From positions 434,001-498,000 of the forward strand of contig NZ_BCYP01000018.1 in the NCBI RefSeq assembly GCF_001598255.1: DNA of 64,000 nt, written 5' to 3'. This document shows positions 41,644 through 62,825 of this stretch, piece by piece (the stretch's first letter is position 1; each line of letters begins with the position of its first letter). The DNA comes from Mitsuaria chitosanitabida ATCC BAA-476 = NBRC 102408 (GTDB lineage Bacteria; Pseudomonadota; Gammaproteobacteria; Burkholderiales; Burkholderiaceae_C). The notes under the pieces are model-generated. The model was not told the origin of the DNA and did not search any database. It was given only the letters and a program-made list of their open reading frames with translations. Position numbers and translations under genes: made by a program.

Positions 41644-42687
41644 CTAGACGGCCGCCTGGATCCAGCTTTGGGCACCAATGGCCGTGAAATGGAAGTTCAT
41701 GACTTCTCCGTTGTGCCGACGAAGTCGGCGCAGTACCGCCATCCGGCGGGCTGGCGGAACGAAGAACATGAAGAAGCCGCCACCACCAGCGCCCGAGATC
41801 TTTCCAGCCAGGGCTCCCGCGTCGATGGCGTCGTCATAGATGGCATCGAGCTGGGGATTGCTGACGCTGGCGGCCAGCTGCTTCTTGGCTTCCCACGACT
41901 GACGCAGGATGGCCGCGTACCGCACGAGGTCGCCGCGCAAGATGGCCTCTTTCATCGACACCGCATCCTGCTTCAACGCAGCCATCGCGGTCAGCGACGG
42001 CGAGGACTTGGCTTTCGTCCGCTCGATCTGCTGCTCGATGATCTTGGCGGATTCTCGAGACTGGCCGGTATAGAACAGAACGGTCGAGGCCTCCAGTTCG
42101 TTGAGCAGCCATTCCTTGATGCGCAGCGGATTCACGAGGACGCGATCGGCACCCGGCCCGAACTCGATGAAGTTGAATCCGCCGAATGCAGCCGCGTACT
42201 GGTCCTGCTTGCCGCCAGCAAGCTTCAATTCCTCACGCTCGATCTCGTAGGCGAGGTGCGCGAGTTCATATTCGCCAAGCCCTAGTCCCAGCCATTCGGA
42301 GAACGCCTGGATGATGCAGACGACCATCGTCGACGAGGTGCCGAGGCCGGAGCCGGCGGGGGCATCCGCGAAGGTCGTGAGCTTGAAGGACAGTGGTTTG
42401 CCGCCGTTGAACTGCCGGACGATGCGGTTGTAGATCCCGCGGTGCAGGCGCAGCGGGTCGACATCGGGCAACGCCGGCATTGAATCGAGTTCAACCGTTT
42501 CCTCTCGATCCTCGGCGGCGAAGATGATTCGCCCATCGTCTCTGGGCTCCAGGATGGCCTGGGCGTAGAGGTCAATGGTGGCGTTGAGGACAAAGCCGCC
42601 TTGTTCCTCGCTGAAGGGGCTGACGTCGGTGCCGCCGCCAGCAAGGCCAAGTCGGAGCGGGGCGCGTGCGCGATAGATCTGATTCAT
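41644..42687 (-). CDS. hddA: D-glycero-alpha-D-manno-heptose 7-phosphate kinase (GHMP family)
   Basis: Phosphorylates C1 of heptose 7-phosphate in the GDP-D,D-heptose pathway. The 347-residue protein has the GHMP ATP motif [11 protein letters not shown] (residues 110-120), the N-terminal [20 protein letters not shown] substrate motif and the C-terminal [15 protein letters not shown] motif, all as in HddA. ATG 42687 gives the normal start. It is the fourth step-gene of a contiguous gmhA-hddC-gmhB-hddA set, which supports the substrate assignment over other sugar kinases. Confidence 0.92.
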
Positions 42688-42739
42688 GGCACCTCGTGCG
42701 ATTCGATGTGAGCAAATGGGGGGCGCCGCGCGCCACTCC

Positions 42740-43300
42740 TCAGGAATGGGCGAGCGCCCGGGCAGCGGCGAGCAGGTCCGATGCGACCAGGTCCGCCTCG
42801 GCGCGCGCGGAGGCTTCGATGGCATGGCCAGATTCGACGAGGACGGTGCGATGCACACCAGCGCGTCGACCTGCCTGAATGTCGCTCAGCTTGTCGCCGA
42901 TCAGCACGCTGCCGGCCAGGTCGAGGTCGAGGTCCCTCTCGGCCTGTAGAAGCATGCCGGGAGCAGGCTTGCGGCAGTCGCATTCGATGGCGAAGGCGGC
43001 GATGCTGCCCTGTGGATGGTGGGGGCAGAAATAGATGCCATCCAGAACGACGCCCCCCTCGGCCAAGCGCGCGCGCAGGTGGTCGTGCAGCCGCTCCATG
43101 GCGGTCTGGTCGTAGTAGCCGCGCGCGATGCCTGCCTGGTTGGTCACGACCACCAGCTTGTAGCCCGCGTCTCGGAGCAGCGCGAGACCTTCGACCACCC
43201 CGGGCAACAGGACGAAGTCCTCGATGCGGTGGACGTAGTTGCGCTCCTCGTTGATGACGCCGTCGCGGTCGATGAAGGCGGCCTTAGCCTTGCCGGACAT
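42740..43300 (-). CDS. gmhB: D-glycero-D-manno-heptose 1,7-bisphosphate 7-phosphatase
   Basis: HAD-IIIA phosphatase of 186 residues that removes the 7-phosphate of heptose bisphosphate. Motif I is [17 protein letters not shown] (Asp11 and Asp13) and motif II is [12 protein letters not shown]. The zinc-binding loop FCPHHPQGS with [10 protein letters not shown] is specific to GmhB. The acidic motif is [16 protein letters not shown] 43300 lies within the end of hddC (17-base overlap). Confidence 0.93.
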
Positions 43301-43997
43301 AGTCTTGGACGCGGGTGTCGAAGAGGTGATAGTCATCGGGGATGCCGATGTCGATGAACGGGCCCGCCAACTCACGCGCCTGGAGCGCGCGCTGGCCCAC
43401 CAGGCGCGGCATCACGCTGGTCTCCATGGAGAAGGCGCCGGCGGGTTCGCCGTCGAAGGCGAGCCGATGGACACGGTACAGCCCCGCGTTGATCGGTCCA
43501 GCGCCGGCCTGACCTTTCTCGAGGAAGGCCGTCACTCGATGAGTTGGATCGACGGCGACACCGCCGAAACGACCGCGATCAGGCACCTGGACGGTAGCGA
43601 TGCGCATGCGTTCGCCGCCCTCGACATCCAGCGGTGCCAGCATGCTGTTGAGGGGGCCGCCGAGGAAGGTGTCGCCATTGGCGATCAGCGCGTCGTCCAG
43701 CCCGGTTTCCTCCATCGCGAAGCGAGCGGCTCCCCCGGTACCGAGCAGCTCGCGTTCGATCACGGTATCGATGACCAGGTCGTGTGCCCAGGGTTGCGCC
43801 AGCGATCGCAGGACCTGATCGGCGCCATGGCCCAGCGCCAGGACAAAGCGCGGGACGCCGCGCTCGGCGAGCGAGCGCAACTGCCATTCGAGGAACGGCC
43901 TGCCGGCGATTGGCGCCAGGCATTTCGGAAGGTCGGGCACAGCGCTGCGCAAGCGCGTGCCGAGACCTCCGGCCAAGACGACGCAGGGGACACTCAT
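43284..43997 (-). CDS. hddC: D-glycero-D-manno-heptose 1-phosphate guanylyltransferase
   Basis: Nucleotidyltransferase of 237 residues that should make GDP-D-glycero-D-manno-heptose. It has the signature [20 protein letters not shown] (residues 6-25 region) and GPFIDIGIPDDYHLF near the C-terminus. The flanking GmhA, GmhB and HddA genes favour HddC over other sugar nucleotidyltransferases. It overlaps the gmhA stop by four bases. Confidence 0.88.
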   Translation of the reverse strand: MSVPCVVLAGGLGTRLRSAVPDLPKCLAPIAGRPFLEWQLRSLAERGVPRFVLALGHGADQVLRSLAQPWAHDLVIDTVIERELLGTGGAARFAMEETGLDDALIANGDTFLGGPLNSMLAPLDVEGGERMRIATVQVPDRGRFGGVAVDPTHRVTAFLEKGQAGAGPINAGLYRVHRLAFDGEPAGAFSMETSVMPRLVGQRALQARELAGPFIDIGIPDDYHLFDTRVQDYVRQG

Positions 43998-44590
43998 GCC
44001 TGATTGGGAGCGAGATGACCGAACATCTGCAGTTCAACCTCGGCGCAGATCATGTGGCCGAGCAGGATGTGACATTCCTGGATCCGTGGCGTATGACGGC
44101 TGGGAGCTCGCAGCACGTGATCCACGCCGGCCAGATCACCTCCAAGGCCGCACAGCGCGATCGAGGTGACCTGAAGCTCCTTGCAGGCCTCGAAGGCACG
44201 CAGCACGTTGGGCGACTTGCCCGAGGTGGTGATGCCCACGAACACGTCGCCCGGCCGGGCTTGCGCCTGCAACTGACGCAGGAACAGGCGTTCGTAACCG
44301 TAGTCGTTGCCGATGGCGGTGATCATCGACGTATCGGTGGAGAGCGACAGCGCCGGGAGACCCGGGCGGTCGAACTCGAAACGGCTGACGAATTCGGCGG
44401 CAAGGTGCTGAGCGTCGGCTGCGCTTCCCCCATTGCCCGCAAAGATGGCGCGGTTCCCGCGCTTGACTGCGGCCACGATGGCGTCGGTCGCGGCAGCGAC
44501 GGCGTGGATCAGCGCCTCATCGGCCAGCAGCTGTTGCTTGACTTCGATGGACTTGGCGATGGATTGCTTGAAACGGTCGATGGTGGTCAT
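43994..44590 (-). CDS. gmhA: sedoheptulose 7-phosphate isomerase (SIS domain)
   Basis: Converts sedoheptulose 7-phosphate to D-glycero-D-manno-heptose 7-phosphate, the first step of heptose synthesis. The 198-residue SIS-domain protein has IFAGNGGSAADAQHLAAEF, LSLSTDTSMITAIGNDYGYE and VFVGITTSGKSPNVLRAFE, all characteristic of GmhA. Because a complete GDP-heptose set follows, this copy probably serves the polysaccharide rather than the LPS core. Confidence 0.95.
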   Translation of the reverse strand: MTTIDRFKQSIAKSIEVKQQLLADEALIHAVAAATDAIVAAVKRGNRAIFAGNGGSAADAQHLAAEFVSRFEFDRPGLPALSLSTDTSMITAIGNDYGYERLFLRQLQAQARPGDVFVGITTSGKSPNVLRAFEACKELQVTSIALCGLGGDLAGVDHVLRAPSRHTPRIQECHILLGHMICAEVELQMFGHLAPNQA

Positions 44591-51446: not shown

Positions 51447-52451
51447 TCAATGAACCTTGGTGGAGAGTTTGGTGACCGCGGCTCGGCGCAGGTCAAGTGC
51501 GCCCTTGACGATTCCCAGCAGATTCAGCTTGCCGAGAAGCCGCAAGGAGCCGAGCAACATGACTGGATAGCCAAGGCGGATCAAGATGCCCCTCACCTCT
51601 TCCAGATGATGGAGCCCGCCGTTGGCCGCCGTGTAGATCAACGCCTTGATGGGATAGGAGCGACGGAATGTCCGGCCAATCGCTTTCCACATGGATGCCG
51701 TGTCGCCGTGGATCTCAGTGATGAGTCGCCGCATGGTCTGGGCGTCCAGTGCGATGAAGCGCCCCGGTACGGTATTGAAGTCGTTGGGATTGCCGCCGCG
51801 GGCAAGGACGAGGCACTCGTCGGTCGCCGCCAAGGAAGCTCCTTCCGCGAGGGCGGCATGCATCGTGAGCATGTGGATGTAATACGTGCCGACCCAGCCA
51901 AGCACTCGATCACGACGGTCCATCCAGATGGTGCGCCGGAATGCGAAAGAAGAAATGAACGTGAAGAGTAGGCTCATGTTCGGCATGTCGCCGAAGTACT
52001 TTTCCAGAGCAGTGGGAGTCGAGTCGACCTGACCGGCCGGCGGATGCGCGGCATACAGGCGATTCAGCAGGATGTCGGTCTGCACGTAGCCGAAATGCAG
52101 GATGTCGTTCCGTCGCTCGCGGAGCGATCTCAGAAGGCGCTCGATCGTGTGGGGTTCGACGACGTCGTCGCTCCCCAGCAGCCAGCAGTACTCGCCTTGC
52201 GCGAACGCGACGACGGCATCGAAGTTCCGGTCCGGTCCAATATTGGTGTCCTGCACGACCCACCGCAAGGGGAGGCAGTGACGGAACTCTTCGAGCAGTC
52301 CGATCGTGCCGTCGGAAGAAGCGTTGTCGCTGACGACAACCTCGAACTGGTCGTCAAGACCTGCAGCCTGAATGGACTCCAGGCATTCACGCAGAAATCC
52401 TTCTCGGTTGAATGTCGGGATACAGACGGAAAGCAGCGGGCGGCTCGTCAT
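51447..52451 (-). CDS. GT2-family glycosyltransferase (GT-A fold)
   Basis: A 334-residue inverting glycosyltransferase. It begins [21 protein letters not shown], followed by [12 protein letters not shown], which binds the nucleotide, and [11 protein letters not shown] as the DxD-type metal motif. The C-terminal part is hydrophobic and variable. It lies between the second flippase (4-base overlap) and the epimerase gene. The donor is unknown. Confidence 0.9.
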
Positions 52452-53821
52452 TCGGTTCTCTGGCGATATCGGGAAAAGATGAGCGCGCACCAAGGAAGCG
52501 CGACGAACAAGGAAACTGCGGCGTAAGCCGCGACGGTCGCCGTCAGGCTGACGTGCGCCATCCAATAGACCCCGCCGCCGATGAGGACGGCTGCGGCGAC
52601 GGACTGGGCCAGCAAGGGCTCCTCCTTGTGCGCCCGCATGTAGGCCGCCATCGCGAAGACGATCGAGTTCACGACCGTCACGGCGGCGAGCAGCAGCAAT
52701 GCCGGCAGGGGGGGCAGTCGGTCGAGGATCTTCGGCACGAAATGACCCGCGACTTGCGCGAGGCCGACGAACAGGACCACGCAGAAGGTCGTCGCACCGA
52801 CGGAACGAAGTGCCTGGCGGTCAAACAGTGCATTCAGCTCGGCGCGTTCCCGGCGAGCAATGTGCGCGGAGAAGGTCGGGATCTTGGCCGAGATCCAGCT
52901 GATCCCCACAGTCGAGATCGCCGAGAAGATGGTCAGGCCCAAACCCAGGCGTCCTGCGGCGACCTCGCCTTGATGCGCGAACACGACCGGTGTCAGGAAA
53001 TTGAAGATGAAGTAGCCACTCGCCCAACTCAGCGCGATGCGCCATTGGAGCGGGAATACGTCGCGCCCGTAGGTGTAGCCTCCCGCCGGTCGATCGTCGG
53101 CGGGCGTCGACACGCGCTCGCGTAGCCCACGCAGGAGGGGTTGGCGGGAAAGCCACCAAGCCGTGCCGGCCGCCGACACCAGCGGCACCGCGGCGGCTGC
53201 CCAGAGGCCCTGGCCGCTCAGCAACAGCAGCCAGAGCATGGCATAGCCGGCAACGGACTGGCGCAGGCGTAGACGCGCGACCTGGCCGACCTCGCCCAGC
53301 CCCTCGCAGATCGCCAGGCGCGCGCTCATGGCGAGATTGAGCGCCGTGGCCGCGATGAGCACCACCCAGGTGGTCAACCACTGGGAGGTCGGCAGAGAAC
53401 CTTTGTGGGAGAAGAACAGGCTGCCGCCTGCGAGCAGTGCGATGAAGAACAGACTTGCCATCACGGCATTCCACTTCGTCGACAGCGATAGCAGGGAGAC
53501 GACCGCCCTTTGCCAGCGGATGTCTCCGTCCAGATGGGTGTCGGACACGCGACGCAGGTGCGCGGCGGCGTGGCTCGTGAGTTGGGTCAACACGTGATTG
53601 AGACCAAGCTCGAAGAAGATCTGCGTGGCGAGTACCGCGTTGAACGTGTAGTAGTAGCCCTGTTGGGACGGACTGAGAAAAGTGGGGATGAGAAGCGCGG
53701 TGGCGCCCCCGGCGAGGATTGACCAGCCACGGAAGAGGAGCGTCGCCAGGATGTGGAAGTCAAGGCCCAGCCTGGCAAGAACGCCAATACGCGGTGCAGC
53801 GGTGCTGTTTGCATCGCTCAT
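52448..53821 (-). CDS. Wzx-type oligosaccharide flippase (second copy)
   Basis: A 457-residue polytopic membrane protein, about 12 helices, MATE/PST superfamily. It opens with helices containing LLFRGWSILAGGATALLIPTFLSPSQQGYYYTF. It is only distantly like the first flippase at 32384-33688. ATG 53821 overlaps the SDR gene stop by four bases, placing it in the CDP-sugar operon. It probably exports the repeat unit that contains the branched sugar. Confidence 0.87.
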   Translation of the reverse strand: MSDANSTAAPRIGVLARLGLDFHILATLLFRGWSILAGGATALLIPTFLSPSQQGYYYTFNAVLATQIFFELGLNHVLTQLTSHAAAHLRRVSDTHLDGDIRWQRAVVSLLSLSTKWNAVMASLFFIALLAGGSLFFSHKGSLPTSQWLTTWVVLIAATALNLAMSARLAICEGLGEVGQVARLRLRQSVAGYAMLWLLLLSGQGLWAAAAVPLVSAAGTAWWLSRQPLLRGLRERVSTPADDRPAGGYTYGRDVFPLQWRIALSWASGYFIFNFLTPVVFAHQGEVAAGRLGLGLTIFSAISTVGISWISAKIPTFSAHIARRERAELNALFDRQALRSVGATTFCVVLFVGLAQVAGHFVPKILDRLPPLPALLLLAAVTVVNSIVFAMAAYMRAHKEEPLLAQSVAAAVLIGGGVYWMAHVSLTATVAAYAAVSLFVALPWCALIFSRYRQRTE

Positions 53822-54819
53822 GTGTTTTCTCCGGTACGGCCGTCCAAGCCGCTGTCGACCTTGGCTCGGAACACGTCGCGGATCGCCGCCGCCAGATCCA
53901 CCTCCACGCGCAGCCCCAGCTCGTCGCGTGCCCGGCGGACATCCGGCAGGTAGAAGTTGCGACGCGCCGACTGACCGGCCTCGGCCTGCTTCATCACCCG
54001 CACCTCCGGCCTGCGCCCCGGTGCGAGCGCCGCGACCTTGGCCGCGAGCTCCGCGATGGAGACGGCTTCGCCGGACCCCACGTTGTAGGCGCGTTGCGCC
54101 CGGCCGCTCAGCAGCAGCGTCGACAGCCAGCGCGCCAGGTCCCGCTGATCCAGGTAGGAGCGCACCGGCGTGCCGTCCCCCTGGATCACGATGTCGCGAC
54201 CGGCCAGCGCGTCGCGGATGAAGTTGCCGATCGCGAAATGCGCGTCCAGCGGCAGATCCTCGCCGACGAAGGCGAAGCACCGGGCGACCACGGTCTCGAG
54301 GCCATGGGCGTCGTGGTACAGCGCGCAAAGATGCTCCGCCTGTCGCTTGGCCACGCTGTAGGCGTTCTGCGGTTCCAGCGGATCCGGCATGCCGTGGTGG
54401 TCCTCCGGCACGCCTTCCGGAAACTGCGCGATGCTCCCGTACACCCCGCCCGAGCTGGTCAGCAGCACGCGCGGCTTGCCGCAGCGCAGCGCCAGGTCCA
54501 GCACGTGACGCGTGCCGTCGACGATCTGGTTGAAGCGCTGCAGCGGCGTCAGCGACAGGCCCGTGGTCGAGTCCGTCGCGGCATGCAGCACATGCGTGTA
54601 GTCGCCTTTGGGCAGCGTCTCCGGGCGCTGGATGTCGCCGGCGACGAGGCGCACGTCCAGGCCGGCCAGCAGGTCGCCATGCGCCGAGCGGAAGCGCGCG
54701 GGGTCCCGCGACAGCAGCGTGAAGCGGGCGCCGGCGAGTTCCGGCGCGCCGCCCGCGGACCAGTGCCGCAGCAGCGCCTTGCCGAAGAAGCCGGTTCCCC
54801 CGGTGACGAACAGATGCAT
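53818..54819 (-). CDS. NAD-dependent epimerase/dehydratase-type reductase, YerF/RfbJ-like
   Basis: A 333-residue extended SDR with MHLFVTGGTGFFGKALLRHW (GxxGxxG), the catalytic Ser in VLLTSSGGVYGS and YxxxK in NAYSVAKRQ. Such enzymes reduce the 4-keto or the branch carbonyl of CDP-3,6-dideoxy sugars (RfbJ, YerF). It follows the TPP enzyme gene directly (26 bases), the same order of action expected for yersiniose-type sugars. I infer that it reduces the acyl branch, but simple C4 reduction is possible. Confidence 0.8.
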   Translation of the reverse strand: MHLFVTGGTGFFGKALLRHWSAGGAPELAGARFTLLSRDPARFRSAHGDLLAGLDVRLVAGDIQRPETLPKGDYTHVLHAATDSTTGLSLTPLQRFNQIVDGTRHVLDLALRCGKPRVLLTSSGGVYGSIAQFPEGVPEDHHGMPDPLEPQNAYSVAKRQAEHLCALYHDAHGLETVVARCFAFVGEDLPLDAHFAIGNFIRDALAGRDIVIQGDGTPVRSYLDQRDLARWLSTLLLSGRAQRAYNVGSGEAVSIAELAAKVAALAPGRRPEVRVMKQAEAGQSARRNFYLPDVRRARDELGLRVEVDLAAAIRDVFRAKVDSGLDGRTGENT

Positions 54820-54845
54820 CGCGTGTGCCGTGTCTGCCGTGAGGG

Positions 54846-56603
54846 TCAGGCCTTGCCGTCGAACGACAGGCCCTCGAGATAGTCGATCTCGGGGGTCATG
54901 CGGTCGATCGGGTTGGACTCCATCGACCCGCTCTCGGTGATGCGGCTGGAGATCTTCGGGAAGTAGGTCTGCTCCGGATCGATGTGCACGACGAAGGCGC
55001 ACAGGCCCGGGTTGTTGAAATGTTTCAGGAAGACCGGGTCGTTCTCGAAGCCGCGGTTGACGTGCACCACGGGCACGTTCCAGGCCGGGAACAGCTTGTC
55101 CCAGTTGGGCAAGCCCAGGCCGGACTTGCGGTCGCAGCCGAGGTACTTGCCCTTGAAGTAGTTGATCTGCGTCATCCGGATCGAGGCGTGACCCTGATCG
55201 TGGAAGATGAACATCTTCAGGTTGAGTCCGTTGATCTCCGCCGTGCCGACTTCCTGCATGTTTTGCGCGAAGCCGCCGTCGCCCTCGATCAGGATGGTGC
55301 GGCGCTCGTTGTCCGCTGCGACGCAGGCACCGATGGCGCCCGACAGGCCATAGCCCATCGAGGCCAGCGACTTGTTGGTCAGCATGCGCTGTCCGAAGCG
55401 CTGCTTGTACAGCTGCATCGACAGGGTGAACGCGCTGCCGCTGGAGCAGGGGATCACCAGATCGTCGGACTTCGTCAGCGTTTCCAGCGTGACGATGAAG
55501 TCGTAGGGCGACAGGTAGTCGGCGCCGGTCTGGTTGACCGCCTCGACGCGCGGCACCGCGGCGCGCACCTTGCGGGCGTAGTCCAGCCAGGCGTCATGCG
55601 GCTTCAGGTCGGCGGTCACGAAGCGGGAGATGAAGTCGTCGGCATCCACGCACAGGCCCTGGTCGATGCGCGGGTGACCCTTGCGCAGCTCGGCCGGGTC
55701 GATGTCGACCTGGACGATGTGGGCGTCACGACCGAACTCCTGCCAGTTGAAACCGGTCTGCTGCATGCCCAGGCGGGTGCCCACGGCGATGATCAGATCC
55801 GATTGCTGGATCAGGATGTTGCTGCTGCGCTGACCCCAGGTGTTGGGGCGGCCCAGGTAGTTGTCCGCGTAGCCGTCGACGCGGTCCGCGCCGTTGTACG
55901 TGGTCATGACGGGCACGCGGGCCTCGGTCAGGCGCTGCTGCAGGCGCTGTGCGACCTCGTAGCTCACACCGCCGCCGATCAGCAGGACCGGCTTCTTCGC
56001 GGCGTTGTAGCGTGCGACGACATCGGACACGTCGGCCTCGGCGGCGATGGGCAGCGCTGGCTTGGTCGCCACGCCGATCGGCTCGGGCTCGACGGTTGCC
56101 GCCTGCACGTTCAAGGGCATCTCGATGAACACCGGGCCCTTACGCGGAAGCCAGGACTGCGACACGATGTCCTTGAAGGCCTTCGCGTCGACCGGCTCGC
56201 GCAACTGCACCGAGGCCTTGGTCGTGGAGGACAGCAGCTCGACGCCGTTGATCTCCTGGATGCCGCGGCCGCGCAGGCCGTCGGAGGCCAGGTCGCTGAC
56301 CTTGACCTGACCGCCGATCACCAGCAGCTCGCGGCTTTCCAGCCAGGCGCCGGAGACGGCGGTGACGACGTTGGTCAGGCCCGGGCCGGTGGTGACCAGC
56401 GCCAGCGCGCGCTGACCCGGTTCGGCGATCTCATTGAAATACTCGGCGCCGATGCCGGCCGCCACTTCATGCACCACCGGCACGCCGGTGAGGTAGCGGC
56501 TCAGGCTCTCGGTGAGATGCATGATGTTGCCGCCGCCGACATAGAAGTAATGCGTGTAGCCGAGGTCGCGCAGCCACTCGCCGATCTGGTCGCTGTATTT
56601 CAT
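54846..56603 (-). CDS. TPP-dependent acyl transferase of acetolactate-synthase family, YerE-like
   Basis: A 585-residue enzyme with three thiamine-enzyme domains. The catalytic glutamate is Glu46 (VPVVHEVAAG), and GPGLTNVVTAVSGAWLESREL lies nearby. The C-terminal TPP motif begins EGDGGFAQNMQE (Asp442). The usual Asn-Asn end of the motif is His468-Asp469 (FHDQGH), an unusual change at the metal-binding site. In Yersinia, YerE uses pyruvate to add an acetyl unit to C4 of CDP-3,6-dideoxy-4-keto-glucose. The neighbouring rfbF, rfbG, rfbH, ascD and SDR genes support that chemistry. It is not the housekeeping IlvB. Confidence 0.85.
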   Translation of the reverse strand: MKYSDQIGEWLRDLGYTHYFYVGGGNIMHLTESLSRYLTGVPVVHEVAAGIGAEYFNEIAEPGQRALALVTTGPGLTNVVTAVSGAWLESRELLVIGGQVKVSDLASDGLRGRGIQEINGVELLSSTTKASVQLREPVDAKAFKDIVSQSWLPRKGPVFIEMPLNVQAATVEPEPIGVATKPALPIAAEADVSDVVARYNAAKKPVLLIGGGVSYEVAQRLQQRLTEARVPVMTTYNGADRVDGYADNYLGRPNTWGQRSSNILIQQSDLIIAVGTRLGMQQTGFNWQEFGRDAHIVQVDIDPAELRKGHPRIDQGLCVDADDFISRFVTADLKPHDAWLDYARKVRAAVPRVEAVNQTGADYLSPYDFIVTLETLTKSDDLVIPCSSGSAFTLSMQLYKQRFGQRMLTNKSLASMGYGLSGAIGACVAADNERRTILIEGDGGFAQNMQEVGTAEINGLNLKMFIFHDQGHASIRMTQINYFKGKYLGCDRKSGLGLPNWDKLFPAWNVPVVHVNRGFENDPVFLKHFNNPGLCAFVVHIDPEQTYFPKISSRITESGSMESNPIDRMTPEIDYLEGLSFDGKA

Positions 56604-56672
56604 GAGGGATCTCTTGGGTTGTCGTTCAGGGAAGCGGGCGGGCGCGGCTCGTGACCGGACCCGCCGTGCCGC

Positions 56673-57368
56673 TCACTCGTGCGCGAGCTTCAGGAAGCCG
56701 CCGATGATCTGGAAGGCCTGGCCCTGCGTGTAGCTGTCCACGTGGGCGACGTCGTAGCCCCAGCCCGCGTGGATGCACAGGTCCACCTCGGTCTCGAAAG
56801 GCTCCAGGTGGGAGTTCATGTCGTCGATGTAGACGACGTAGTCGCCGTTCTCCAGCCAGCGCTTGTGCTTGGCCACGCCCAGCTTGGAGCCGTGCTCGCG
56901 GATCTCTTCCTGACCGTAGATCTCGATGCCGTCGGCCTCGAAGAACTCCAGCGTGCGCTGGATCGACGCCTTGTTGCGGGTGGACAGGATCTTGAAGGTC
57001 TGCGGGTACTTCATCAGCAGCGGACGCAGCTGATAGAAGAACGGGTAGGGCGACATCAGCTTGGCCCAGTCCGGGTCCTTGATCATCTCGGCGCGCGCGG
57101 CGAAGAAGCCTTCCGAGAAGCGCCAGTCGTCCGCGTCCGGCTCGACCTCGTGCAGCTTGGTGATGTCGCGGAGGATGCGGTCCTTCTGATACAGGCGGCA
57201 GAACTGCCACGCATCCGTCAGCTGGGCGCGGAAGCTCATGAACTCGTCGAAGGACAGTCCGTGGCGATAGCGGTCGTCACCCTTGGCCAGGTGCTCGCAC
57301 ACCTGGTAAGCCTCGTAAGCGCTGTTGAACAGCACGCCGTCGAAGTCGAGCAGGATCAGCGGCTTCAT
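56673..57368 (-). CDS. HAD-superfamily hydrolase
   Basis: A 231-residue haloacid-dehalogenase-type phosphatase with all four motifs: DFDGVLFNS (nucleophile Asp8, acid Asp10), ILSTRNKAS (motif II), the lysine in GVAKHKRWLENG, and VYIDDMNSH (acidic motif). A sizeable helical cap lies between motifs I and II. It is sandwiched between a pyruvate-aldolase family gene and the TPP enzyme gene, so it may dephosphorylate an aldol product before it is used by the TPP enzyme. The substrate is inference only. Confidence 0.82.
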   Translation of the reverse strand: MKPLILLDFDGVLFNSAYEAYQVCEHLAKGDDRYRHGLSFDEFMSFRAQLTDAWQFCRLYQKDRILRDITKLHEVEPDADDWRFSEGFFAARAEMIKDPDWAKLMSPYPFFYQLRPLLMKYPQTFKILSTRNKASIQRTLEFFEADGIEIYGQEEIREHGSKLGVAKHKRWLENGDYVVYIDDMNSHLEPFETEVDLCIHAGWGYDVAHVDSYTQGQAFQIIGGFLKLAHE

Positions 57369-57371
57369 GGC

Positions 57372-58079
57372 TCAGGCCCTCTTGGTGAGCGCGGCCAGAC
57401 GCGCGTTGACGGCCGGCAGGGTGCGCTCGGACTCGCGCGCCCGGCGGCGCAGTAGCACTTCCTCGAGCTTCAGCGCGTGCGTCAGCGCGGACTCCTCCAG
57501 GAAGCGCTCCACCGGCATCACGGCCTTGCGGGTCTCGACGTAGTCGAGCAGGCCGCGCAGCTCGGCGTCCGTCTGCAGCAGCTCGCGCGTGTGCTTGCTG
57601 ACGCTGCCACCCATCGTGACCTTCAGGCCCTTGGCCTTGGCGGCGCGCGCCACCGTCTTGACCATGCCCACGGTGCGGTCCGACTCGACGCTGTCGCCCT
57701 TGTACGAGGCGGTCAGGTCGGTGCGGCCGATGGTGACCTCGGAGAGCGACTTGCCCTCGGCCAGGATGGCGTCGATGTTGGCCACCGCGGTGATCGTCTC
57801 GATGGTCACGCCCACATGCTCGAACGCGCCCTGGGGCAGCATCTCCATGTACTTCTCCATCGCGAAGGCGGTCTCCACCATCGGGCAGACCAGCGACGTG
57901 ATGCCGATGTCGGCCAGGTAGAAGACGTCGCTCTTCGCTTCGGCGCCACTGATCTTGACCAGGTAGTCCTTGCCTTGACGCGCCGCGAACAGGGCCTCGG
58001 CGGCCACGTCGACACGGGTCAGGCCCTCGGCTTCGAACTCGCCCTTCAGGCTGGCGAAAACGCTGTAGTCGATGTCCAT
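57372..58079 (-). CDS. HpcH/HpaI aldolase/citrate-lyase family protein
   Basis: A 235-residue TIM-barrel protein of the metal-dependent pyruvate aldolase family. The metal site is suggested by VTIETITAVANIDAIL (Glu) and EVTIGRTDLTASYKG (Asp); the opening LVKISGAEAKSDVFYLADIG and CPMVETAFAMEKYM are family-like. Such enzymes join pyruvate or oxaloacetate to an aldehyde to give a 4-hydroxy-2-oxo acid. It starts 59 bases after rfbH and ends 3 bases before the HAD gene. A biosynthetic role making a 2-oxo acid for the TPP enzyme is inferred from context. Confidence 0.8.
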   Translation of the reverse strand: MDIDYSVFASLKGEFEAEGLTRVDVAAEALFAARQGKDYLVKISGAEAKSDVFYLADIGITSLVCPMVETAFAMEKYMEMLPQGAFEHVGVTIETITAVANIDAILAEGKSLSEVTIGRTDLTASYKGDSVESDRTVGMVKTVARAAKAKGLKVTMGGSVSKHTRELLQTDAELRGLLDYVETRKAVMPVERFLEESALTHALKLEEVLLRRRARESERTLPAVNARLAALTKRA

Positions 58080-58138
58080 CGTTGTCCTCACTTGTCTCTC
58101 TTGGATGTCTGGGGTCTCGAAGGTCGCGCGGGCGACGC

Positions 58139-59488
58139 TCAGAAATTCACGCCGAAGAACTCTTCCAGCTTGCCGGCGATGTAGTCCAGCTGCTCCTGGC
58201 CCAGCGCCGGGAAGGTGCCCAGCCAGAAGGTCTGGTTCATCACGACGTCGGTGTTGGTCAGCTCGCCGCTGACGCGGTAGTTGCGGCCGGCCATGTAGGG
58301 CTGCTTCGTCAGGTTGCCGGCGAACAGCAGGCGCGTGCCGATCTTGTTCTCTTCCAGGAAGTTGATCAGGTCCGCGCGCTTGACGCCGGCCGTCTCCTTC
58401 ACGATCAGCGGGAAGCCGAACCACGACGGCTCGCTGTTGGGCGTGGCTTCTGGCAGGTGCAGGAACTCGGCCACGCTGGCCAGCTTGGCCTTCAGGTAGG
58501 CGAAGTTGGCGCGACGTTTGGCAATGAACTCCTCGACGCGGTCCATCTGCGCCAGCGCGCAGGCGGCCTGCATGTCGGAGATCTTCAGGTTGTAGCCCAG
58601 GTGGCTGTACGTGTACTTGTGGTCGTAACCGTCCGGCAGGTCGCCGCCCAGCTGCTCCTTGGTCCAGCAGAAACGCTTGTCGCAGGTGTTGTCCTTGCCG
58701 GGCGGGCAGTAGCAGTCACGGCCCCAGTCACGGAAGGATTCGGCGATCAGCTTCAGCTCGGCGTTGTTGGTGAACACCGCGCCGCCTTCGCCCATGGTGA
58801 TGTGGTGGGCGGGGTAGAAGCTCAGGGTGCCGATGTCGCCGAAGGTGCCGACCAGCTGGCCGTTGTACGTGGCGCCCAGCGCGTCGCAGCAGTCCTCGAC
58901 CAGCCACAGGTTGTACTTCTTGCACAGCGCCGTGACCACGTCCAGGTTGAACGGGTTGCCCAGGCTGTGGGCCAGCATGATGGCCTTGGTCTTGGGCGTG
59001 ATCGCCGCCTCGATCTTGCTGGCGTCGATGTTGTGCGTGGCCAGGTCGACGTCGACGAAGACCGGCACGGCACCGAACTGGACGATCGGGTTCACGGTGG
59101 TGGGGAAGCCGGCGGCGACGCCGATGACCTCGTCCCCCTGCTTGATCGCGCGATCGCCCAGCTTCGGGCTGGTCAGCGCCGAGAACGCCACCAGGTTGGC
59201 CGAGGAGCCGGAGTTCACCGTGATCAGGTACTTCACGCCCAGGAACTGCGCCAGGCGTTGCTCGAACATGGCGTTGAAGCGACCGGTGGTCAGCCAGCCG
59301 TCCAGCGAGGCGTCGACCATCATCTTCAGTTCACCGGCGCCGATCACCTTGCCCGAGACGGGCACGGGCGTCTGGCCGGGCACGAAGGCCTTGGGGGCGT
59401 ACGCGATGTCGGCGTACTGCTGGACCAGCTCGCTGATCTGGCTGCGGAGCTTGTCGAGCTGCGGCTGGAAATTGATGGGAGTGGTCAT
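58139..59488 (-). CDS. rfbH: CDP-6-deoxy-D-xylo-4-hexulose 3-dehydrase (RfbH/AscC, E1)
   Basis: PMP-dependent, 2Fe-2S enzyme that removes the C3 hydroxyl of CDP-6-deoxy-4-keto-glucose. The 449-residue protein has the DegT fold, but the Schiff-base lysine is replaced by His228 in [17 protein letters not shown], which is the hallmark of E1. The Cys-rich [20 protein letters not shown] supplies the iron-sulfur ligands. ATG 59488 overlaps the rfbG stop by four bases. It needs AscD (61377-62369) to complete the reduction. Confidence 0.96.
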
Positions 59489-60558
59489 ACGTCGGCTCGG
59501 TATTGAGAGATTTGATTCAGACAGACGGCGCGCATGTCCTGGCCGGACAGCCAGGCTTGATGCCAATCGGTGATGCGGGTCAGCGCGGTCTCGAGCGACC
59601 AGCGCGGGGCCCATTGCAGGCGCTGGCGCGCCTTGGAGATGTCCAGCTTCAGGAAGCTGGCTTCATGCGGGTGATTGCCCGGCTGCAGGGTCCAGGAAGC
59701 GCCGTCGCCCCAGGCGTCGCACAGGTGCTCGACGATCCACTGCACGGGACGGGCGTCCTCGTCGCGGGGACCGAAGTTCCAGCCCTCGGCGTCGGTCTGG
59801 CCTTGCGCATAGAGACGCTCGGCCAGCAGCAGATAGCCCGACAGCGGCTCCAGCACGTGCTGCCACGGACGGATCGCATGCGGGTTGCGGATCAGCACGG
59901 GTTGCTTCTCCTGCAACGCGCGCAGGATGTCCGGCAGCAGCCGGTCCAGGGCCCAGTCGCCGCCGCCGATGACGTTGCCGGCGCGGGCCGTGGCCATCGC
60001 GATGCCCGCGTCCTTGAGGAAGGACTTGCGGTAGGCCGAGCTCACCAGCTCGGCGCAACCCTTGCTGTTGGAGTAAGGGTCGTGACCGCCCATGGGCTCG
60101 TCCTCGCGATAGCCCCAGACCCACTCGCGGTTCTCGTAGCACTTGTCCGTCGTGATGTTCACGATGGCCTTGACCGAGCCCGTGTGGCGCGCGGCCTCGA
60201 GCACGTGCACCGTGCCCATCACGTTCGTGGCGTAGGTTTCAATCGGCTGGTGATAGGACAGGCGCACCAGCGGCTGGGCCGCCATGTGGATGACGATCTC
60301 GGGCTGGAAGTCGTCGAAGGCCGCCTTGACCGCCGCGAAGTCGCGGATGTCGGCGATGCAGTGCTCCATGCCCTCGGCCACGCGGGCGACGTCGAAGAGC
60401 GCGGGCTCCGTCGGCGGTGCCAGCGAGACGCCGCGCAGCGTCGCGCCCATGGACTGCAGCCACAGGCTGAGCCAGCTGCCCTTGAAACCGGTGTGACCGG
60501 TCAGCAGGACGCGCTTGCCCTGCCAGAAGGCGGGATTGGTCTGCGCGAGGCTGCTCAT
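59485..60558 (-). CDS. rfbG: CDP-glucose 4,6-dehydratase
   Basis: Makes CDP-4-keto-6-deoxyglucose. The 357-residue SDR has [21 protein letters not shown] for NAD binding, [20 protein letters not shown] with the catalytic residues, and [12 protein letters not shown] as the YxxxK-type motif. ATG 60558 overlaps the rfbF stop by four bases. It is the second step in the CDP-dideoxyhexose route. Confidence 0.96.
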
Positions 60559-61328
60559 TTCCAGCTCTTCCACGGTGCCTTGCCGGAGGCCCACAGCTCC
60601 TCCAGGAACGTCTTGTCGCGCAGGGTGTCCATCGGCTGCCAGAAGCCGTCGTGCTCCCAGGCCATGAGCTCGCCGTCGGCAGCCAGGCGTTGCAGCGGTT
60701 GCTGTTCCCAGACCGTGGCGTCGTTCTCGAGGTAGTCCAGTACGCGCGGCGACAGCACGAAGAAGCCTCCGTTGATCATGGCGCCGTCGCCCTTGGGCTT
60801 CTCCATGAACTGCTTGATCTGGTTGCCCTGGATGTCCAGCGCGCCGAAACGGCCCGGGGGGTAGGTCGCGGTCAGCGTGGCGGCCTTGCCGTGGCTCTTG
60901 TGGAACTCGATCGCGGCGCCGATGTTGACGTCGCTGACCCCGTCGCCGTACGTGAAGCAGAAAGCCTCGTCATTGCGCACATAGTCCGCCACGCGCAGGA
61001 GTCGGCCACCGGTCATCGAGTCGTCACCCGTGTCCACCAGCGTGACGTTCCAGGGCTCTGCGCGCTTGTGATGGACTTCCATCCGGTTGCTGCGCATGTC
61101 GAAGGTGACGTCGGACATGTGCAGGAAGTAGTTGGCGAAGTACTCCTTGATCACGTAGCCCTTGTAGCCGCAGCAGATCACGAAGTCGTTCACGCCGTGC
61201 TGCGAGTACATCTTCAGGATGTGCCAGAGGATGGGCTTGCCGCCGATCTCGACCATCGGCTTCGGGCGGGTGGAGGTCTCTTCGCTGAGTCGGGTGCCCA
61301 GGCCACCGGCCAGAATCACTGCTTTCAT
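60555..61328 (-). CDS. rfbF: glucose-1-phosphate cytidylyltransferase
   Basis: Forms CDP-glucose from CTP and glucose 1-phosphate. The 257-residue protein has the nucleotidyl motif [23 protein letters not shown] and the characteristic [20 protein letters not shown] and [15 protein letters not shown] segments of RfbF. It is 48 bases after ascD and coupled to rfbG. Confidence 0.97.
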
Positions 61329-61376
61329 GGGAAAGGTCCTATCGGATCGGGATCGTTGGATCGAGGAGGTCGACGC

Positions 61377-62369
61377 TCAGGTCGCGGCCGAGCACACGAA
61401 GGCGTCGGAATGGAATTGGCGCTCGGGCAGGCCGGCCGCGTGCAGCCGGGCCTGGGCACCGTGGATCATGGCGTCGGAGCCGCAGGCGTAGACCAGCGTG
61501 TCGGCCAGGTAGGGGTGCTCACGCAGCATCACGTCCTGCACGTGCCCGCGGGCGCCGGTCCAGGCCTCGTCGGCGCGCGACAGCACGGGGACGAAGCGCA
61601 CGCCCGGCTGCTCGGGCGGCTGCCAATAGAGGTCCTCGCGATGGCGCCCGCCCCAGTAGACGGTGACGGAGCGCGGGGGCGCGTCCTGGGCCAGCGCGGA
61701 CATGCCTTCGAGGATGGCCTTGACGGGAGCGATGCCGGTGCCGGTCGCCAGCAGCACCAAGTCCTTGCCGGCCTGGCCGCGCAGGAAGAAGGTGCCGAGC
61801 GGACCGCGCAGGCGCAGCAGGTCGTTCGCCTTGGCTTGCTGGAACCAGTAGCGGCTCATCGCGCCATCGGCCACTTCACGGATGTGCAGCTCGATCTGCT
61901 TGTCGGCGCGCGGCGCGTTGGCGATGGAGTAGCTGCGGCGCAGACCTTCGGCGCCGATCACGTCGATGTACTGGCCGGGCAGGAAGTCCAGGGCCGAGGT
62001 CGGCGGCAGGCGCAGCATCACGCGCACGACGTCGTGGGACAGGCGCTCGATGGACTGGATTCGGCAGGGCAGGGTCTTGGCCTCGGGCAGCACGACGTCG
62101 CCGAGATCGTCAATCTCCAGCTCCACCGGACCGCAGGCCTGTCGCACGCAGGTGAGGATGAAGCCGTGGGCCTTGTCCTCCGCGCTCAGGCCGAGCTCGT
62201 CATGCGCGGCGACCGTTTCGCCCGAGCGCACGCGCCCCTTGCACGAGCTGCAGCGGCCGGTGCGGCAGCTGTAGTCGAGTACGACGCCTTGACGCAGGGC
62301 GGCGTCGAGCAACGATTCGCTGCTCTGCGCCTCGAACGTCTTGCCGCTGCTGATGGTGACGGTGTGCAT
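61377..62369 (-). CDS. ascD: CDP-6-deoxy-delta-3,4-glucoseen reductase (AscD/RfbI, E3)
   Basis: Electron-transfer partner of RfbH. The 330-residue protein has an N-terminal plant-type 2Fe-2S domain with Cys35, Cys40, Cys43 (DYSCRTGRCSSCKG) and Cys74 (FILTCVRQA). It is followed by an FAD domain (GLRRSYSIANAP) and an NAD(P)H domain (LVLLATGTGIAPVKAILEG). This order is that of E3. Its presence with rfbF, rfbG and rfbH shows that the pathway reaches CDP-3,6-dideoxy-4-ketoglucose. Confidence 0.95.
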   Translation of the reverse strand: MHTVTISSGKTFEAQSSESLLDAALRQGVVLDYSCRTGRCSSCKGRVRSGETVAAHDELGLSAEDKAHGFILTCVRQACGPVELEIDDLGDVVLPEAKTLPCRIQSIERLSHDVVRVMLRLPPTSALDFLPGQYIDVIGAEGLRRSYSIANAPRADKQIELHIREVADGAMSRYWFQQAKANDLLRLRGPLGTFFLRGQAGKDLVLLATGTGIAPVKAILEGMSALAQDAPPRSVTVYWGGRHREDLYWQPPEQPGVRFVPVLSRADEAWTGARGHVQDVMLREHPYLADTLVYACGSDAMIHGAQARLHAAGLPERQFHSDAFVCSAAT

Positions 62370-62390: not shown

Positions 62391-62825
62391 TTAGGCACGC
62401 CCGTCGTGACTCGTGGCGTCTGGAGCAACTTGATGGATCGGCCCCGCCGTGGCACTCGACGGTCCCTGTCGGGATACCTCGTCACGCAGCGCATCGATCT
62501 CTCGCTGCAGTTGCTCGAACTCTGCTTCCTTGATGGCAAGGAAGCGTCGCGCCATTCGCATCTTTGCGTGAACCCCGCTCGGCGTCAGGATGTAGACATA
62601 GGCGAGCTTGTTGTCCGAGCGACGAAAGTTGTTGACCTTCACCCAGCCACGGTCGATGACGGCGCGCAGGCAGTAATTGATCTTGCCCACGCTCACACCC
62701 ATGCGCATCGCGAGGTCGCGCTGGTTGCTGTCGTTCTTCTGCTCAAGCTGCGAAAGCAACTCGTAGTCGAGCGCCCGACCCGGTTCGGGGTCGCGGCCTG
62801 ACGTGGTCGGATCGTTCGAAGTCAT
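62391..62825 (-). CDS. MarR-family EPS-associated transcriptional regulator
   Basis: A 144-residue winged-helix protein. The N-terminal half has LDYELLSQLEQKNDSNQRDLAMRMGVSVGKINYCLRAVIDRGWVKVNNFR in family terms, ending YVYILTPSGVHAKMRMARRFL, then a coiled C-terminal helix. This is the MarR subgroup that accompanies EPS loci in betaproteobacteria. The start ATG 62825 has no Shine-Dalgarno sequence; a perfect palindrome abuts it (62828-62848). It is 21 bases before ascD and may be co-transcribed with the CDP-sugar genes. Autoregulation is likely. Confidence 0.88.
   Translation of the reverse strand: MTSNDPTTSGRDPEPGRALDYELLSQLEQKNDSNQRDLAMRMGVSVGKINYCLRAVIDRGWVKVNNFRRSDNKLAYVYILTPSGVHAKMRMARRFLAIKEAEFEQLQREIDALRDEVSRQGPSSATAGPIHQVAPDATSHDGRA

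Follow-up and report, generated by a model that had tools for sequence, protein, structure and literature searches.

Few sugars on bacterial surfaces are as strange as the higher branched ones. In the yersiniose pathway, as described in PMC12247030, the enzyme YerE takes an acetaldehyde unit from pyruvate, its preferred donor, and places it on cytidine diphosphate (CDP)-3,6-dideoxy-4-keto-D-glucose. According to the same source, the erwiniose enzyme ErwE leaves pyruvate unused and favours longer acids with functional groups, 4-hydroxy-2-oxo acids for example, MMAR_2332 of the caryophyllose pathway has a donor preference like that of ErwE, and MygE takes acids from C3 to C8; action on a ketone is yet to be shown for MMAR_2332 and was not seen for MygE (PMC12247030). 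A further YerE-like enzyme, JanthE (structure 8rph), is reported to accept 4-hydroxy-2-oxovalerate together with benzaldehyde (PMC12188165), and also to use pyruvate and other simple acids (PMC12247030, PMC12188165). More than 200 YerE-like enzymes have been predicted, the vast majority of them without a known sugar structure according to PMC12247030. Here, we describe an eight-gene cassette with a YerE-like thiamine diphosphate (ThDP) enzyme in a 64,000-nucleotide stretch of Mitsuaria chitosanitabida ATCC BAA-476 = NBRC 102408 (contig NZ_BCYP01000018.1, positions 434,001 to 498,000; the whole stretch is called the window, and positions are counted from its first letter). Its product is fairly probably a C4-branched CDP-3,6-dideoxy sugar that goes into a surface polysaccharide, with a custom-made 2-oxo acid as the donor.

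The first-pass annotation had laid out eight genes, from an ascD-like reductase to a short-chain dehydrogenase/reductase (SDR), and this order was confirmed; between 62369 and 53818, on the minus strand, the eight open frames follow one another head to tail:

61377..62369, minus strand: ascD-like reductase (2Fe-2S/FAD/NAD); PF00111, PF00970 and PF00175 above cut-off
60555..61328, minus strand: rfbF, glucose-1-phosphate cytidylyltransferase; TIGR02623, 477 bits (cut-off 300)
59485..60558, minus strand: rfbG, CDP-glucose 4,6-dehydratase; TIGR02622, 516 bits (cut-off 278)
58139..59488, minus strand: rfbH, C3 dehydrase (E1); NF011936, 740 bits (cut-off 423)
57372..58079, minus strand: HpcH/HpaI-superfamily aldolase, 235 amino acids; PF03328, 33.4 bits (cut-off 25, a weak pass)
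56673..57368, minus strand: HAD hydrolase, proposed phosphatase, 231 amino acids; from motifs and predicted fold
54846..56603, minus strand: YerE-like ThDP carboligase, 585 amino acids; PF02776, PF00205 and PF02775 above cut-off
53818..54819, minus strand: SDR (extended), proposed branch-ketone reductase, 333 amino acids; PF01370, 121 bits

Judged by the known functions of their families, RfbF, RfbG, RfbH and the AscD-like reductase would together yield CDP-3,6-dideoxy-4-ketoglucose. RfbH has the PAHHIT histidine as well as Cys259, Cys261, Cys269 and Cys274, and we take this histidine, in place of the pyridoxal phosphate lysine, and the four cysteines, as ligands of an iron-sulphur cluster, to mark a C3 dehydrase and not an aminotransferase. 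The AscD-like protein stayed below cut-off for all of the 25 NCBIfam models listed out of 27, and is the presumed electron donor (E3) for RfbH, given its position and domains. For the remaining four proteins we infer the following reactions. The aldolase would condense a phosphorylated aldehyde with a donor of the pyruvate type, giving a phosphorylated 2-oxo-3-deoxy acid from which the HAD hydrolase would take off the phosphate and free a hydroxyl; the ThDP enzyme would then decarboxylate the acid and add the acyl group to the C4 ketone, and the SDR would reduce the branch ketone. This would give an open branch, polyhydroxylated and some four to six carbons long. A first guess at the donor is the product of pyruvate and a triose phosphate (2-keto-3-deoxygluconate-like, C5 branch), and a second guess involves a tetrose phosphate (C6 branch, the length found in caryophyllose). 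The aldolase and the HAD protein most likely supply the polyhydroxylated C4 branch because of two observations set out below, namely the pairing of HAD and ThDP genes within one clade and the acid-making gene sets of the bacterial family.

The ThDP enzyme has the three-domain, decarboxylase-type architecture in Pfam. Its closest solved structure is 8rph (264 bits), which is JanthE (PMC12188165), followed by an acetolactate synthase at 195 bits; among solved structures, a YerE-like enzyme thus scores above the acetolactate synthases. Relatives were collected by a genome-collection scan with a four-row ThDP alignment and two short peptide patterns, and the best 80 of 166 were kept. These were divided into a clade of 22 loci (L numbers denote loci), with ThDP enzymes at least 63% identical to that of the window over the best aligned piece, and 58 sister loci at 50–60%, many of the latter on short contigs. 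Gene distances were taken between aligned ends, and locus counts are raw, uncorrected for relatedness. At least one of rfbF, rfbG and rfbH lies beside the ThDP gene in 20 of the 22 clade loci and in 45 of the 58 sister loci, and the window has all three.

Within the clade, the members of which are mostly Sphingomonadales, the HAD gene lies directly upstream of the ThDP gene, at 9–99 bases, in 21 of 22 loci. The window-type aldolase gene follows the same pattern in 14 loci, 11–147 bases upstream of the HAD gene, and some aldolase is present in 15. The first-pass annotation had suggested searching other genomes for the trio of aldolase, HAD and ThDP genes beside rfbFGH. This trio was found, with the whole order rfbF-rfbG-rfbH-aldolase-HAD-ThDP in 10 of the 22 clade loci (L034, L036, L039, L040, L041, L042, L045, L049, L050 and L107; in L041 with one inserted gene). 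L034 comes from Croceicoccus pelagius and L036 from Novosphingobium kunmingense. Since the tight spacing recurs across clade loci, the gene order is not a product of chance. In a tree of the ThDP enzymes, all HAD-bearing rows together with L092 formed one branch (Shimodaira–Hasegawa-like approximate likelihood-ratio test, 100) among cyclase-bearing rows; the tree came from a quick search in which several deep forks were supported at 83–89 only. A HAD-profile search of 396 genomes, from the order to which the genome of L040 belongs, gave five matches, all beside aldolase and ThDP genes; one of the five came from a genome new to the set, the other four from genomes that it already contained.

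The yersiniose pathway includes a reductase step, YerF, and to our knowledge requires neither an aldolase nor a phosphatase. A plain route of this type, with the ThDP enzyme adding an acetyl unit from pyruvate, the SDR reducing it, and the aldolase and the HAD protein serving another sugar of the polysaccharide, appears unlikely for the window. It would accord with the preference of YerE itself for pyruvate (PMC12247030), with the seven clade loci in which the aldolase was found neither at the locus nor elsewhere in the genome at E <= 0.001, and with the wecB and heptose-type genes through which the locus seems to make further sugars. However, the window-type HAD gene is missing from all 58 sister loci and, in 21 of the 22 clade loci, stands no more than 99 bases from the ThDP gene, a tight arrangement for an unrelated sugar; acid-making gene sets also accompany the ThDP gene in all 17 family loci with rfbFGH.

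To obtain these family loci, 399 genomes from the window's family were searched with a profile; in 21 of them, the window's own included, a YerE-like enzyme was found at E <= 1e-100. The 20 other loci, L026 among them, were examined; each gene family was identified by Pfam on a single representative, and tblastn then traced it in the other loci. In 17 of the 20, rfbF, rfbG and rfbH all lie near the YerE-like gene, and each of the 17 has one acid-forming set, while no such set was found in the three loci without the full rfbFGH trio. The sets were a NeuB-like synthase (11 loci), an acetaldehyde-dehydrogenase type (three), a galactarate/altronate-dehydratase-like type (two) and an HpcH/HpaI aldolase (one). 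As the sets were named from these same loci, the 17 of 17 is post hoc and descriptive, not an independent test, and this weakens it as support for a custom donor. SDR homologues of at least 40% identity were present in 13 of the 17 loci.

The single aldolase locus, L026, pairs its HpcH/HpaI aldolase with a different, phosphoglycolate-phosphatase-like HAD protein. The NeuB-like gene stands in place of the aldolase in L144, L147–L153, L155, L156 and L161, and the same replacement was seen in L055, L064, L076, L085, L089, L097, L103 and L105; the family call comes from Pfam for L153 and from tblastn for all the others. Across the 80 loci of the scan, aldolase and NeuB-like genes were mutually exclusive (55 and eight loci, respectively, and none with both). 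L145 and L146 have galactarate/altronate-dehydratase-like, mannitol-dehydrogenase-like and inositol-monophosphatase-like genes near the YerE-like ThDP gene.

In the remaining type, L157–L159, the ThDP genes are of the JanthE type with a CDG motif and have an acetaldehyde-dehydrogenase gene as a neighbour; ascD-rfbFGH is part of these stretches as well. L157 and L158 were confirmed to have a 4-hydroxy-2-oxovalerate aldolase, and the L159 stretch stops at a contig edge; of the three ThDP enzymes, that of L157 was compared with JanthE and scored 1060 bits. The set is erwiniose-like, in that erwiniose synthesis would, as we infer, use acetaldehyde dehydrogenase and 4-hydroxy-2-oxovalerate aldolase. 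Neither of these two families was found among the eight cassette proteins with Pfam and NCBIfam.

The aldolase itself gave an AlphaFold2 (AF2) model (mean predicted local distance difference test score, pLDDT, 96). Its top Foldseek matches, at template-modelling scores of about 0.6, were members of the HpcH/HpaI superfamily, RipC first, followed by HpaI, YfaU and SwHKA. Glu94, Asp121, Lys42, Glu47, Glu69 and the ETRK stretch at 182–185 are invariant in 34 homologues. The window aldolase thus has in common with the class II pyruvate aldolases HpaI, YfaU and SwHKA the fold and the invariant Glu94 and Asp121, presumably the metal-ligand pair, and differs from them in a shorter N-terminus, a KGEFEAEG motif and the invariant ETRK, at 16–21% identity in the fold matches listed for these three. 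The KGEFEAEG motif was compared by eye with the GEHAP motif of HpaI, which holds the catalytic histidine; because the N-terminal motif is unlike that of HpaI, it gives no lead to the substrate. The aldolase had no match in viral contigs, and tblastn against plasmids gave three remote matches. One, in Ilyobacter, sits among dehydrogenase and aconitase genes; the other two are from Novosphingobium humi, and one of these (L014 9932-12744) has rfbF, rfbG and the aldolase in a row. The ThDP enzyme had no plasmid match at E <= 1e-60.

The HAD protein had no Pfam or NCBIfam match at E <= 0.001, so that no named HAD family model fits, and no match among PDB sequences at E <= 1. The nucleophile DxD, Ser/Thr, Lys and DD motifs are nevertheless all present, and D8, D10, S129, T130, K162, D182 and D183 do not vary across the 21 sequences aligned. 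The top folds matching its AF2 model (pLDDT 93) were of the beta-phosphoglucomutase and phosphoglycolate phosphatase types. Together, motifs and model suggest a putative phosphatase of an unnamed family.

Several points weigh against a custom acid made by this aldolase. MygE uses a wide range of donors, and neither MMAR_2332 nor MygE is proven to accept a ketone (PMC12247030); JanthE also takes pyruvate, so that the neighbours of the L157–L159 enzymes fit the published assay without doing so exclusively. The aldolase is remote from characterised enzymes, being only 12–21% identical to the 50 folds listed and without a PDB sequence match at E <= 0.001, and by eye it appears to lack the histidine of the GEHAP motif of HpaI. 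The HAD protein could act after ligation. Seven of the 22 clade loci (L032, L033, L035, L037, L038, L047 and L092) have no such aldolase, nor did a whole-genome search of those seven genomes recover one at E <= 0.001. In L048 the one aldolase is of the sister type and lies 3 kb away from the HAD gene, L092 carries the clade ThDP gene without HAD or aldolase genes, and 17 of the 80 loci, some on short contigs, have neither an aldolase nor a NeuB-like gene. L092 is a metagenome contig labelled Chitinophagaceae (Bacteroidota) with a ThDP enzyme 76% identical to that of the window, which may reflect either transfer or mis-binning. L035, L037 and L038, the last from Sphingomonas immobilis, are isolates, and the other four aldolase-less carriers are metagenome or single-cell assemblies.

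The custom 2-oxo acid route put forward in the first-pass annotation therefore stands in part. The YerE-like relatives of the ThDP enzyme and the recurrence of the trio beside rfbFGH support it; the six of 21 HAD-bearing clade loci without the aldolase (L032, L033, L035, L037, L038 and L047) do not, and such strains must either draw the acid from another source or have an aldolase that is not essential. A possible explanation is that the HAD protein acts on a ready-made phosphorylated 2-oxo acid, for instance 2-keto-3-deoxy-6-phosphogluconate of the Entner-Doudoroff pathway, with the aldolase as an optional extra. Of the seven clade genomes that lack the aldolase, five (G860-G864) have a full-score Edd, and the galactarate/altronate-dehydratase-like gene of two family loci would give a C6 2-oxo-3-deoxy acid. 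Edd is, however, above cut-off in 13 of 16 other genomes as well, the window's included (18 of 23 in all), and being that common its presence does not discriminate on the absence of the aldolase. We regard the use of a ready-made acid as improbable.

The sister loci differ from the clade in gene content. No AroB-like gene occurs in the 22 clade loci, whereas 44 of the 58 sister loci have one, and the window-type HAD is present in none of the 58. An aldolase of another subtype was found in 40 of the sister loci, a small SDR in 42, and the different HAD of L026 was matched in five; when only the 31 sister loci with at least 9.9 kb on each side are counted, the aldolase is present in 24 and the AroB-like gene in 26. 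The best model for the two AroB-like proteins tested was TIGR04425, a putative cyclizing sugar phosphate phospholyase, at 296 and 273 bits (cut-off 400). The recurrent sister set of rfbFGH, aldolase, small SDR, AroB-like gene and YerE-like ThDP gene (among L051-L110, e.g. L080 1-11743 and L067 3185-11728) was seen in Acidobacteriota, Methylomonas, Oxalobacteraceae, Prochlorococcus/Synechococcus, Actinomycetota, one Rickettsiales contig (L083) and others. L089 and L101 are contigs titled Bifidobacterium breve with ThDP genes that group with Solirubrobacterales and other Actinomycetota, and their labels look doubtful.

The AroB-like enzyme family requires a phosphate leaving group. If the cyclase of the sister loci, which takes the place of the HAD protein, acts late, the phosphate must survive ligation, and the same could then hold in the clade: the ThDP enzyme would take the phosphorylated acid and the HAD protein would dephosphorylate the CDP-sugar afterwards, or would partner the ThDP enzyme without being a phosphatase. 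We consider this very unlikely, and the invariance of the catalytic residues in all 21 aligned HAD sequences speaks against a non-catalytic role.

Judged by their gene content, the sister clusters are a candidate route to carbocyclic branched sugars. A phosphorylated branch or acid might undergo ring closure in these clusters and plain dephosphorylation in the window's clade. The AroB-like clusters may be tied to carbocyclic sugars of the caryose type or of the type of bradyrhizose, a ten-carbon bicyclic sugar (PMC9912281). We tentatively propose, as a possibility more doubtful than not, that YerE-like enzymes are fed by interchangeable acid sets that fix the branch, and that in the clade the HAD gene replaced the AroB-like cyclase, turning a ring-closing pathway into one with an open, fully hydroxylated branch; HpcH/HpaI aldolase, NeuB-like synthase, 4-hydroxy-2-oxovalerate aldolase and sugar-acid dehydratase are conceivably the sets concerned. 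The dTDP-type dehydratase annotated in the bradyrhizose cluster counts against such a swap. If the rule that neighbouring genes set the branch donor is true, products would be predictable from genomes and matched aldolase-carboligase pairs would be at hand for enzyme engineers; the exchange of an AroB-like cyclase for a phosphatase in otherwise similar clusters offers a starting point for tests of how carbocyclic sugars could be formed.

The cassette sits in a surface-polysaccharide locus. A MarR-type exopolysaccharide (EPS) regulator lies ahead of it together with a Wzz-like gene; after it come a Wzx-like gene, a glycosyltransferase of family 2, wecB, another glycosyltransferase-like gene, a protein without a match, which could be a candidate Wzy, and heptose-type genes. 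The two genes flanking the cassette are:

62391..62825, minus strand: MarR-family EPS-associated transcriptional regulator; TIGR04176, 138.7 bits (cut-off 88)
52448..53839, minus strand: Wzx-like flippase, downstream gene; NF041503, 59 bits (under the cut-off of 300)

The heptose-type genes (window 41644-44590) comprise an HddA-like kinase, a HAD phosphatase, an HddC-like nucleotidyltransferase and a GmhA-like isomerase, the best NCBIfam models being below cut-off for the three scanned. Service of the aldolase to these genes was considered and set aside, as about 13 kb lie between them.

Compared with the described systems, the route proposed for the window shares with the YerE yersiniose pathway the branching of CDP-3,6-dideoxy-4-keto-D-glucose at C4 by a ThDP carboligase, and departs from it in the donor, which is pyruvate for YerE (PMC12247030). 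JanthE has a CDG motif (also PMC12247030) where the window enzyme has GDG, and its close relatives in the present set adjoin a gene set other than that of the window. Compared by description, ErwE of Pectobacterium atrosepticum resembles the proposal in adding a long hydroxylated 2-oxo acid to the same CDP-ketosugar (PMC12247030), although erwiniose, as a ten-carbon sugar (PMC8657720) and thus with a four-carbon branch, differs from the product suggested here. The caryophyllose structure given in the first-pass annotation proved right: a 1,3,4,5-tetrahydroxyhexyl branch is described on C4 of a 3,6-dideoxyhexose (PMC5706390), making a C12 sugar with a C6 branch (PMC5706390, PMC7821131). Again by description, the caryophyllose of Mycobacterium marinum, with MMAR_2332, is like the proposed sugar in its long polyhydroxylated C4 branch (PMC5706390, PMC7821131), but that branch ends in CH3 (PMC5706390), unlike the product expected after removal of a terminal phosphate by the HAD protein. 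As the caryophyllose branch lacks the terminal hydroxyl that the HAD protein would leave, the window sugar is more likely a relative of caryophyllose than caryophyllose itself. The core idea of a custom 2-oxo acid is not new, because the donor preferences of ErwE and MMAR_2332 are already in print; the general trick is known, but the helper enzymes of this cassette may make up a new version of it.

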